In this document: positions 1,125-3,310 of the stretch, one piece after another
How the letters are laid out: every line of letters starts with the position of its first letter
How positions within the stretch are numbered: the first letter of the stretch is position 1
Origin: Hymenobacter sp. BT18
Lineage (GTDB): Bacteria; Bacteroidota; Bacteroidia; Cytophagales; Hymenobacteraceae
Assembly (NCBI RefSeq): GCF_012273015.1
Contig: NZ_CP050954.1
Coordinates: 2,272,001-2,336,000 of the forward strand
Length of the DNA: 64,000 nt
Reading direction: 5' to 3'
Program-made: the position numbers and the translations under genes
The notes under the pieces: model-generated
The model's input: the letters and a program-made list of their open reading frames with translations, nothing else
Told to the model about the DNA's origin: nothing
The model's database searches: none

Positions 1125-2159
1125 TTACCGACACAGATGGCCGTGAGCGTGCGAGGCAAAGTGCGTGCTTGGCAAACCCAGCCAGTCCAGGGCGTTCTGG
1201 CCCAGCATCCGGGCCTTTACCTCGTCGGAGAAAGGCATGGCGTTAATCAGCTGCCCGGGCACCTGTTCGCCCAGGGGAAAGGGGTAATCGGTGCCCAGCG
1301 TAATTTTATCGGCGCCCAGGGTTTTCACCAGGTAGTCCAGCATCAGCGGGTCGTGCACCAAGGAATCTACCCAGAACCGGCCCAGGTACTCACGCGGGTT
1401 CACTGGGTTGTCGACGGCGCAGAGGTCGGGGCGCACCTGCCAGCCGTGCTCGATGCGACCAATGGTGCTGGCAAAGGTGCCGCCGCCGTGGGCCACCGCT
1501 ACGCGCAGGCGCGGCAGCCGCTCCAGCACTCCGCCAAACACTAACGAGCAGAGGGCCAGGGTACTTTCGGCGGGCATTCCCACCAGCCAGGGCAACCAGT
1601 ACTTGGGCATTTTCTGCTGGCCCATCATGTCCCAGGGGTGGATGAATACGCAAGCGCCCAGCTCCTCGGCCGCCGCAAACACCTCGAATAGCTGGGGCGC
1701 ATCCAGGTTCCAGTCGTTGATGTGGGAGCCGATCTGCACGCCGGCCAGGCCCAGCTCCTTCACACAGCGCTCCAACTCCCGAACCGCCAGATCAGGGGCC
1801 TGCATAGGTAAAGTGCCCAACCCCACAAAGCGCGTGGGGTAGCGCCGCACCACGTCGGCAATGTGGTCGTTGAGCAGGCAGCTCAGGTCCAGGGTATCGA
1901 GCGGCTTAGCCCAGTAGCTGAACATAACAGGCACGGTGCTGAGCACCTGTACCTGCACGCCCAACTGGTCGTACTCGCGCATCCGCACCTGAGGGTCCCA
2001 GCAGTTGTCCTGAATTTCGCGGAAGAACTTGTCGTCCTGCATCATGCGGGCGCAGCAGGGCTTGTGATGCTCGAGCCGCACGAAGCCGCCATAGCCGTAC
2101 CGCTCCCGCAAGTTGGGCCAGGTTTCGGGCAGAATGTGGGTATGAATATCGATGACCAC
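1125..2159 (-). CDS. 2-amino-3-carboxymuconate-6-semialdehyde decarboxylase (amidohydrolase 2 family)
   Basis: The product (344 residues from GTG 2159) is an amidohydrolase-2 family TIM barrel. It opens with IDIHTH (two metal-binding His), followed by [14 protein letters not shown] and GTDYPFP (His, His and Asp ligands). This set matches zinc-dependent ACMS decarboxylase, which converts the ring-cleavage product of 3-hydroxyanthranilate to 2-aminomuconate semialdehyde. The next-but-one gene upstream encodes the 3-hydroxyanthranilate dioxygenase, which supports that substrate. The reading frame stays open for 15 more codons upstream, but those codons lie in the repeat arm of the GxxExxY unit. 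I therefore place the start at GTG 2159, next to the conserved VIDIHTH. That GTG lies inside the terminal sequence of the inserted unit. The equivalent gene is called nbaD or ACMSD elsewhere. Confidence 0.85.
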
Positions 2160-2802
2160 AGATGTTGACGGATGGGGAGACGGATGAAACAGACCGCGGA
2201 TCAAACGGATGAAAGGATGGATGAAACGGACCGCGGATCAAACGGATATGAGACGGATCAAACGGATGGGGTCGGCGGCAGCTGGAAGCTAGGGGATTGG
2301 CTTATTTTTGAGCAGGCGCTTGTATTCCAGGCGGATAGCTCCAAAGTTCAGGAGCAGCCCTACCTGAATCCGGAAGGCTTCAAGGTAGCCTAATAGCTGT
2401 GCTTGGTGGGCACTGGTAAGAGCCGCAACAGCTTTCAGCTCAACCAACACCCGACTATCTACCAGAAAATCGGCGCGGCGTGCCCCTACTTTCTCGCCCT
2501 GATAATAGACAGACAATTCCACCTCCCGCTCACTAGCAATGCCCTGTTTCTGCAGTTCAATCTGTAATGCCCGCTGATAGATAACCTCCGGAAAACCACT
2601 ACTCATTGTCCGCTGCACGCGCATAGCACACCCGATAATCTGATGCGTAAGCGCATCATAATCCGCCAGATTGATCATGCTAGTGACAAGGTTGTTGCTC
2701 CAACTCTAAAGCGCCTCTTGCTTATCCGTCTCCATCCGTCCTTTCATCCGTTTCATCCACGGTCCGTTCCATCCGTCCTTTCATCCGTCACAATCTGTGG
2801 TC
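2154..2802. mobile_element. repeat-flanked GxxExxY unit between two kynurenine-pathway genes
   Basis: About 649 bases interrupt the expected dioxygenase-decarboxylase gene pair. Both ends carry GACCACAGAT pointing inward (2154-2163 on plus, 2802-2793 on minus). Each is followed by roughly 90-115 bases built from ACGGATGAAA and GGACCGCGGATC-like words, so the arms are imperfect inverted repeats (about 2154-2272 and 2715-2802). The only gene inside codes for a GxxExxY protein. I recall ATCCGT-rich repeats beside GxxExxY genes in other environmental bacteria, but cannot check this here. No transposase is encoded and no target duplication is obvious. Calling it mobile is inference from its placement and symmetry. 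Confidence 0.6.
2289..2678 (-). CDS. GxxExxY family protein, PD-(D/E)xK-like
   Basis: The product is a 129-residue small soluble protein. The family motif G-F-P-E-V-I-Y is at residues 28-34, in a helix that continues YQRALQIEL. It is followed by the strand pair RADFLVDSRVLVELKAV, with Asp70, Glu80 and Lys82. This D-x9-E-x-K spacing is that of the PD-(D/E)xK nuclease fold, so a nuclease-like activity is plausible but unproven. The end, HQAQLLGYLEAFRIQVGLLLNFG, is typical of the family. The biological role of GxxExxY proteins is not established. The gene sits alone between inverted ATCCGT-rich arms, on the same strand as its neighbours, so it may be read through from the dioxygenase gene. Start ATG 2678 fits the family length. 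Confidence 0.85.
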   Translation of the reverse strand: MINLADYDALTHQIIGCAMRVQRTMSSGFPEVIYQRALQIELQKQGIASEREVELSVYYQGEKVGARRADFLVDSRVLVELKAVAALTSAHQAQLLGYLEAFRIQVGLLLNFGAIRLEYKRLLKNKPIP

Positions 2803-3310
2803 TTTCCATGACGGTACAACAGTTCTGGCAGGTGCGCTTTTGCTCATCCTGCCAGAAGCGGTTCATAATAGGCGGCAGCTGGGCCACGATGTCCGTGATT
2901 TCGGCGTACTCCTCGTAGAGCTTGTGTCCGCAGTTTTCGCAGTACCACTGGAAGCCATCCAGCTCACCCGCGGAGCGGTACCGCTCCAGCACGAGGCCTA
3001 CCGTGCCGGCCGGGCGGCGCGGGGAGTGGGGCACGCCGGGCGGCAGCAGAAACATGCTCCCCGCTTTTATCTCGATATCAACCGGCTTGCCGTCTTCGAT
3101 GATCTTCACCACTATGTCACCTTCCAGCTGCAGGAACAACTCTTCGCCTTCGTCTACGTGGTAGTCCTTGCGGGCATTGGGGCCGCCCACCACCATCACA
3201 ATAAAGTCTTTGTTGTCTTTAAATACCTGCTGATTGCCCACCGGGGGCTTCAATAAGTGACGGTGCTCTTCAATCCACTGCTGAAAGTTGAACGGGCGGG
3301 CGACGGGCAT
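2753..3310 (-). CDS. 3-hydroxyanthranilate 3,4-dioxygenase
   Basis: The product (185 residues) is a cupin that opens the aromatic ring of 3-hydroxyanthranilate to give ACMS. The iron site lies in YHVDEGEELFLQLEGD (His and Glu) and PPGVPHSP (His). Arg residues of the SPRR motif bind substrate in the family. The C-terminal part has two CxxC pairs, CENCGHKL and CQNCC, the rubredoxin-like second metal site of bacterial 3-HAO. ATG 3310 starts the expected MPVARPFNFQ end. The last 13 or so residues (after MERPQ) are encoded by the repeat arm of the adjacent GxxExxY unit, which also supplies the TGA stop. The protein therefore carries a short foreign tail (VTDERTDGTDRG). The gene is divergent from the SDR gene at 3466. 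Confidence 0.92.
   Translation of the reverse strand: MPVARPFNFQQWIEEHRHLLKPPVGNQQVFKDNKDFIVMVVGGPNARKDYHVDEGEELFLQLEGDIVVKIIEDGKPVDIEIKAGSMFLLPPGVPHSPRRPAGTVGLVLERYRSAGELDGFQWYCENCGHKLYEEYAEITDIVAQLPPIMNRFWQDEQKRTCQNCCTVMERPQIVTDERTDGTDRG

Follow-up and report, generated by a model that had tools for sequence, protein, structure and literature searches.

A small gene enclosed by inverted arms between two metabolic genes

The window analyzed here is a stretch of 64,000 nucleotides from Hymenobacter sp. BT18 (contig NZ_CP050954.1, positions 2,272,001 to 2,336,000), numbered from its first letter. Positions 2154 to 2802 form a 649-base cassette with GACCACAGAT inverted at both termini and paired arms on either side of a single GxxExxY gene, as the original prediction had described. 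The features of the locus are the following.

2154-2802, no strand: whole arm-gene-arm cassette, with inverted arms; equivalent boundaries are found in inter-site pairs of relatives
2154-2272, plus strand: left arm, with CAGAT/CGGAT units at 2159-2267; pairing with the right arm involves its first 70 nt
2733-2802, minus strand: right arm, the reverse complement of the left one; units reach about 2724
2154-2163, plus strand: outer terminus GACCACAGAT
2793-2802, minus strand: outer terminus GACCACAGAT, inverted
2289-2678, minus strand: GxxExxY gene of the GFxExxY type, PDDEXK_3 (PF13366), with E31, D70, E80, K82, Q94 and Y98
2753-3310, minus strand: upstream neighbour, 3-hydroxyanthranilate 3,4-dioxygenase gene, whose frame ends within the right arm
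1125-2159, minus strand: downstream neighbour, Amidohydro_2 gene; possible GTG start (inferred) at 2159-2157 in the arm end

The GxxExxY gene and both neighbours are carried by the minus strand and share the same reading direction. According to the ORF list, the dioxygenase frame enters the right arm by about 50 nt before its stop codon, and a GTG located in the end of the left arm is a possible start of the downstream gene, which was profile-scanned as ORF 1125-2204. Judging by its position, we take this Amidohydro_2 gene to be that of aminocarboxymuconate semialdehyde decarboxylase. In many of the relatives that were read, the dioxygenase and Amidohydro_2 genes lie side by side, in agreement with the proposal that the cassette separates normally neighbouring genes.

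The paired arms (2154-2223 and 2733-2802) are 70 nt long each, show 84% complementarity and are spaced by 509 nt. Strict alignment matched 59 of 70 columns and gave a score of 37, the maximum being 14 for 303 random placements in related loci. Arms of about 100 bases, rich in ATCCGT, had been predicted; inverted arms are indeed present, but regular pairing is restricted to about 70 nt, beyond which CGGAT units extend to about 2267 in the left arm and about 2724 in the right one.

PF13366 was the sole Pfam match among the scanned ORFs of at least 60 amino acids in the cassette, three other overlapping ORFs matching no family. Neither a transposase of the DDE, HUH (Y1 RAYT included), serine or tyrosine type nor a site-specific recombinase gene was detected by Pfam among these ORFs, so that the view of a unit with one recognisable gene and no transposase holds. 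Rfam returned no match, intron families and rRNA included, between positions 1900 and 3100 of the window.

GxxExxY is a predicted nuclease of the PD-(D/E)XK type

The 129-amino-acid GxxExxY protein matched TIGR04256 with 133.1 bits (cut-off 35) and PF13366 with 131.4 bits (cut-off 22). In a 30-row alignment across phyla, E31, Y34, D70, E80, K82 and Q94 were invariant and Y98 nearly so, which together with the profile scores supports the D70-E80-K82 pattern noticed initially. A sequence search for a solved GxxExxY structure found none. The AlphaFold2 model (pLDDT 92.4) had as best fold neighbour 4ic1 (SSO0001), presumably a Cas4 protein (Foldseek E 1e-4; Z 9.8, rmsd 2.7 over 93 residues), and weaker matches were obtained with restriction enzymes, lambda exonuclease and Hjc. 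QxxxY, a motif of the RecB branch of PD-(D/E)XK nucleases, is seen here at positions 94-98. The modelled fold, the D-ExK residues and QxxxY together place GxxExxY in the RecB/Cas4/lambda-exonuclease branch, with a predicted nuclease activity.

Median dN/dS values were 0.06-0.13 in four groups of loci sharing a site, and none of the 70 pairs (dS 0.05-1.5) exceeded 0.5, indicating that the protein is under purifying selection. ExK was missing in 3 of the 112 genus cores as read, among them a truncated reading (L117), and locus L138 has a K at the position of E80. In the second copy of the genome (L001, C1:1064753-1065091), VLVVLKAL replaces VELK and the catalytic E80 is lost; despite this loss, its arms are near-perfect, with 101 of 104 columns matched.

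Inverted arms surround most GxxExxY genes in Hymenobacter

The GxxExxY family was present in 82 of 120 Hymenobacter genomes, a patchy distribution. Arms were scored as the best alignment between the upstream flank and the reverse complement of the downstream flank, with a threshold of 16; this strict scoring replaced a lenient scheme, which extended into the coding flanks. The 112 genus loci studied are among the best-scoring GxxExxY matches listed, 21 further Hymenobacter loci being left out. Inverted arms reaching the threshold were found around 108 of these 112 genes, as compared to none of 303 random placements (maximum 14) and none of 112 reversed controls (maximum 15). The one other GxxExxY gene of this genome, located 1.2 Mb from the focal one, likewise lies within inverted arms. 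The search for further copies suggested by the original prediction was therefore productive, both in this genome and genus-wide.

For genus loci above the control maximum, the median cassette is 495 bp long. Median distances are 12 nt between the start codon and the inner boundary of the upstream arm, and 5 nt between the stop codon and the other arm. The arms are tandem arrays with a period of 9-10 nt, in which the unit sequence varies between elements. Their ends are not of fixed sequence: arms differ widely from one element to another, yet remain self-complementary within each.

This genome also contains at least 11 palindromes of the type ACCACRGAT...ATCYGTGGT, too short to carry the GxxExxY gene, with no occurrence of the reversed-pattern control. 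Three gene-less palindromes (L016, C1:816-1067; L029, 1290407-1290665; L033, 2392963-2393255) have an internal terminator-like hairpin, and a palindrome of the TGTCATCCTGAGC...GCTCAGGATGACA type is nested in them, which gives the impression that one repeat inserted into another.

Similar arms occur in about ten phyla

Outside the genus, the sample consisted of 2 viral contigs and 57 loci from genomes, after removal of two loci (L199 and L252) located too close to contig ends. The arm threshold was reached by 31 of these 59 GxxExxY loci and by 1 of 131 controls; 28 of 59 did not reach it, and neither did 12 of 28 loci from other Bacteroidota. By record title, the armed loci span about ten phyla and include Bacteroidota, Cyanobacteria, Chloroflexota, Acidobacteriota, Planctomycetota, Lentisphaerae, Nitrospinota, Myxococcota and Zetaproteobacteria, as well as Geomonas, Trichlorobacter and one of the two viral contigs. 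Among the plasmid loci (5 of 8 records examined), typical arms above threshold were found in Sphingomonas only (score 18), where the GxxExxY cassette (L349, 1470-1935) splits a fabD-fabG pair; the loci of Persicobacter, Fusobacteria and Treponema plasmids scored 9-11, below threshold. The score of 88 obtained for a Gemmatirosa plasmid (L348) was set aside as a local tandem palindrome, not typical arms. At this locus, GGACTGAAGAAGGACTGAAGAAGG-type tandem palindromes flank the GxxExxY gene on both sides.

Protein type and arm type go together: GFxExxY proteins are associated with GGATT-type arms and GLLExxY proteins with CGCAGAG-type arms. A k-mer score trained on the genus matched the two in 107 of 107 leave-one-out cases within the genus and in 49 of 57 loci outside it, failing in 8. 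Since this score also gave a 'B' call to most regions 400-500 nt beyond the arms, whichever the protein type, we placed more weight on an orientation-controlled count of units, in which, out of 56 GL-type loci from outside the genus, 46 had the motif pointing inward and 6 had it pointing outward. Arm typing by regular expressions was abandoned, as it put 16 GL-type loci on the wrong side while their arms, by eye, are mostly of the CGCAGAG type. Two loci from Acidobacteria and Planctomycetota (L228 and L232) carry the usual units in outward orientation, with CTCTGCG upstream of the gene. The match between protein and arms could reflect co-inheritance rather than recognition. Arm identity between orthologous cassettes was 0.67-0.74 in the three largest site groups, which denotes a rapid drift; the retention of a unit consensus across phyla therefore suggests a constraint.

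Cassettes are found at unrelated sites, and sites are found empty

Grouping the genus loci by both 1-kb flanks gave 27 sites, 15 of them with at least two members. Copies at different sites shared up to 88% protein identity. Of 10 inter-site pairs chosen for comparison, 6 had homology bounded by the outer ends of the arms, usually to within 6 nt and never off by more than 17, and no match between their 1-kb flanks. The remaining four comprise three pairs that match mainly over the gene and one pair with a common upstream flank. One inter-site comparison opposes a cassette located between beta-lactamase-type and AMP-binding genes (L143) to one located between amylase and short-chain dehydrogenase (SDR) genes (L149).

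The amylase/SDR site was followed in relatives, 12 of 26 loci being parsed (30 at the start), with 6 filled and 6 empty. Genomes G039, G016 and G005 are filled, and G015, G014, G046, G037 and G023 are empty; their SDR flanks are 83-92% identical to that of G039. An 88-bp spacer is kept in these five empty genomes and absent from the three filled ones. The arms of G005 differ from those of G039 and G016.

At the dioxygenase site, the focal cassette was recovered in none of the 29 relatives read, and by-eye comparison placed no listed GxxExxY match of other genomes within about 3 kb of the dioxygenase gene. Empty sites, looked for on the strength of the original prediction, thus exist, and the cassette is not a fixed feature of this position in all relatives, the finding that would have spoken against that prediction. 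Gene-less inverted short-unit arrays (GTGAATGTGAGG... and GGTGAGGTGG...) were noticed by eye beside the dioxygenase gene at L164, L176 and L179. Elsewhere in this genome, a gene-less palindrome (C1:451276) occupies the site where the relative G030 carries the gene.

Target duplication showed no excess over shuffled flanks in 105 related elements (mean 0.87 versus 0.94). Recent within-genome amplification was not found among 64 same-genome pairs, whose protein identity was about 70% at most, and the nearest protein was at the same site for 83 of 100 loci. Movement therefore appears to be slow, with much vertical transmission. The proposed 'minimal self-propagating unit' stands in part: inter-site copies bounded by the arm ends speak for mobility, but self-propagation is the weaker term because close copies are lacking within one genome. 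Some apparent insertions might instead reflect spread through homologous recombination of the flanking genes. On these comparisons, the mobility of the cassette is well supported.

The cassette fills the gap between genes and can invert

Neighbour strands were called by a GC3 heuristic and gene families were checked at four sites. Relative to the GxxExxY gene, the neighbours were (+,+) at 80 of the 112 loci, (+,-) at 27, (-,-) at 2, (+,unread) at 2 and (unread,-) at 1. The upstream neighbour was thus co-directional with the gene in 109 of 112 cases, and divergent neighbours were seen at none of the 112. Counted by the majority of their members, 14 sites are convergent, 12 co-directional and 1 partly unread. 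The median distance from the upstream stop codon to the arm is 3 nt, and that from the arm to the downstream start codon is 11 nt (75 co-directional loci each), indicating that the cassette, which replaces the spacer, fills the stop-to-start gap. Given this orientation and the fit to the gap, GxxExxY expression probably relies on transcripts that read through from the upstream gene.

Both gene orientations were observed at 6 of 15 shared sites, with no conflicting pairs; these sites include that of the genome's second copy and not that of the focal cassette. Neighbours are convergent in all members of the L101 and L001 groups, and of the L125/L126 site as far as read, so that either orientation of the gene has a co-directional upstream gene. 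Each of the remaining three sites has a single antisense member, namely L052, L136 and, probably, L141, which was read on one side only. Comparison between loci thus indicates that the whole cassette relocates, that it can lose its gene or be absent, and that the segment inverts.

In the largest site group, 219 non-consensus cells were common to both arms versus 136 present in one arm only, whereas shuffling of partner arms gave a mean of 46 shared cells and a maximum of 74. The same tendency was found in four further groups, the smallest of which ties with its shuffled maximum (24 and 24). These counts indicate concerted evolution of the paired arms within an element.

An unrelated gene family shares this architecture

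Four-helix-bundle (TIGR02436) genes, presumably of the S23p family encoded by rRNA intervening sequences (IVS), are enclosed by inverted arms above the control maximum at 44 of 47 loci in the genus. Inverted arms of 7-bp units are found, among others, at L265-L294, L295 and L296; the 7-nt period gives a match of 0.72 at lag 7 and of 0.74 at lags 14 and 21. Two gene gaps, the dioxygenase site and the junction of two CoA-transferase genes, hold a GxxExxY cassette in some species and a four-helix-bundle cassette in others, both flanks matching at 75-86%, in pieces. By eye, relatives G031 and G092 have a gene-less 7-mer palindrome at the dioxygenase site.

In the published description of the Coxiella IVS (PMC4990558), the terminal stem is 28 bp long, tandem heptamers precede the S23p ORF, and the element is termed selfish. 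Like the focal cassette, 23S rRNA IVS are built on a short unit, with one small ORF, complementary termini and tandem short units beside the ORF. Unlike them, the focal cassette lies in a gap between protein genes and not in a 23S rRNA gene, its ORF belongs to the unrelated PF13366 nuclease family and not to S23p/four-helix-bundle proteins, GxxExxY units are 9-10 bp instead of 7 bp, and no sign of RNA-level selection was found. No rRNA match was obtained in 20 distant GxxExxY loci. Of the systems compared, 23S rRNA IVS are the closest in architecture to GxxExxY cassettes.

What could account for the cassette

We regard as probable that the focal cassette is a member of a widespread, gap-filling and mobile arm-GxxExxY-arm family, whose nuclease probably acts on its own arms. 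In the mechanism that we consider the most likely, the Cas4/RecB-like protein would recognise the arrays of about 10-bp units, or the hairpin or cruciform that they may form, and would cut or resect DNA at the arms. Recombinational repair would then install a copy of the cassette in a new gap or at a homologous locus, where it would occupy the space from stop to next start, replace the spacer and leave no target duplication. Recombination between the arms may account for both inversion and concerted evolution.

Alternatively, the cassette might act at the RNA level in the manner of an IVS, the arms pairing in the read-through transcript and RNase III or the protein cutting the stem, so that the element would be tolerated through excision from the mRNA. 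The plan shared with the Coxiella IVS (28-bp stem, small ORF and tandem heptamers, PMC4990558), the 7-bp-unit inverted arms around four-helix-bundle genes of the genus and the orientation of GxxExxY with its upstream gene are all in line with such a possibility. Transcripts selected for folding should show more G.U than A.C mismatches on the transcribed strand. The arm mismatches on the gene-sense strand showed no such excess, with 88 G.U versus 144 A.C overall, a reverse bias. Neither was it found when the inner 18 nt were dropped (45 versus 59 at co-directional and 12 versus 16 at convergent sites), nor in the arms of four-helix-bundle cassettes (35 versus 43). Selection for an RNA hairpin is therefore not supported by these counts, which favour an action at the DNA level; moreover, inversion and inter-site moves require DNA events. 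We consider the RNA-level explanation unlikely.

Less likely still, the arms could be the ends used by another element's transposase, with GxxExxY as cargo, as in a MITE. The gene-less ACCACRGAT...ATCYGTGGT palindromes, at least 11 in this genome against none in the control, speak for such a passenger; the 105 elements without target duplication above chance, arms that vary widely between elements while staying self-complementary, purifying selection on GxxExxY and the presence of the same gene family in such arms across about ten phyla argue against it. Finally, GxxExxY might be an immobile, vertically inherited host gene with conserved palindromic flanks serving in regulation or termination, to which the nearest neighbours at the same site (83 of 100) and the terminator-like hairpins of some elements would correspond. 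This explanation is contradicted by the arm-bounded inter-site copies with unrelated flanks, unless those pairs are misread, and it is difficult to reconcile with empty and gene-less sites, with unrelated four-helix-bundle cassettes in the same two gaps and with a patchy presence in 82 of 120 genomes, which makes it highly improbable.

Relation to known elements and significance

The mobile arm-GxxExxY-arm cassette that we favour resembles several known systems. In the REP/RAYT 'REPtrons', RAYT is a Y1 HUH transposase. As in these, a single-gene unit lies between palindromic repeats and gene-less repeats occur elsewhere in the genome, but the only recognisable gene of the GxxExxY cassette is of the PD-(D/E)XK type instead of Y1 HUH, and its arms are long arrays of tandem units with an element-specific sequence. 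Inverted ends, intergenic placement and gene-less relatives recall MITEs and IS elements, from which GxxExxY cassettes differ in that no transposase, target duplication or fixed end sequence was found and the spacer is replaced. Homing endonucleases of the PD-(D/E)XK fold are likewise small selfish nuclease genes at recurrent sites; unlike them, GxxExxY has inverted arms, occupies several unrelated sites and matches no intron family. The Rpn nucleases, which are mobile PD-(D/E)XK gene families suspected of promoting recombination, belong to a different Pfam family, and we know of no GxxExxY-like arms associated with them. Invertible segments with a dedicated recombinase also show both orientations at one site, as do 6 of 15 sites here, the focal cassette not being among them, whereas no site-specific recombinase gene is present in the focal cassette.

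Literature searches, mostly of papers outside subscription journals, found no description of GxxExxY cassettes, and the arm-GxxExxY-arm cassette appears to be a minimal mobile element of a kind not described before. More tentatively, and with somewhat less than even confidence, we suggest that it represents a categorically new class, in which a Cas4/RecB-like nuclease encoded by the sole gene would recognise arms of about 10-bp units, insert from stop to start without duplication, replace the spacer, keep its arms alike and flip, the four-helix-bundle cassettes and 23S IVS being the counterparts with 7-bp units. If so, one principle, that of short-unit inverted-arm cassettes, would span unrelated proteins, and rRNA intervening sequences would be one special landing site of such cassettes. 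This would also provide a context for the still unexplained intervening sequences of 23S rRNA; the protein family that they encode is found here in the same kind of cassette. The system is also compact enough for asking how a nuclease of about 130 residues could mobilise DNA in the absence of a transposase. Many genomes have GxxExxY genes annotated without a known role, and their arms suggest a testable one: such genes may belong to tiny mobile cassettes by which intergenic spacers are rewritten and which may provide the adjacent genes with new stops and starts.
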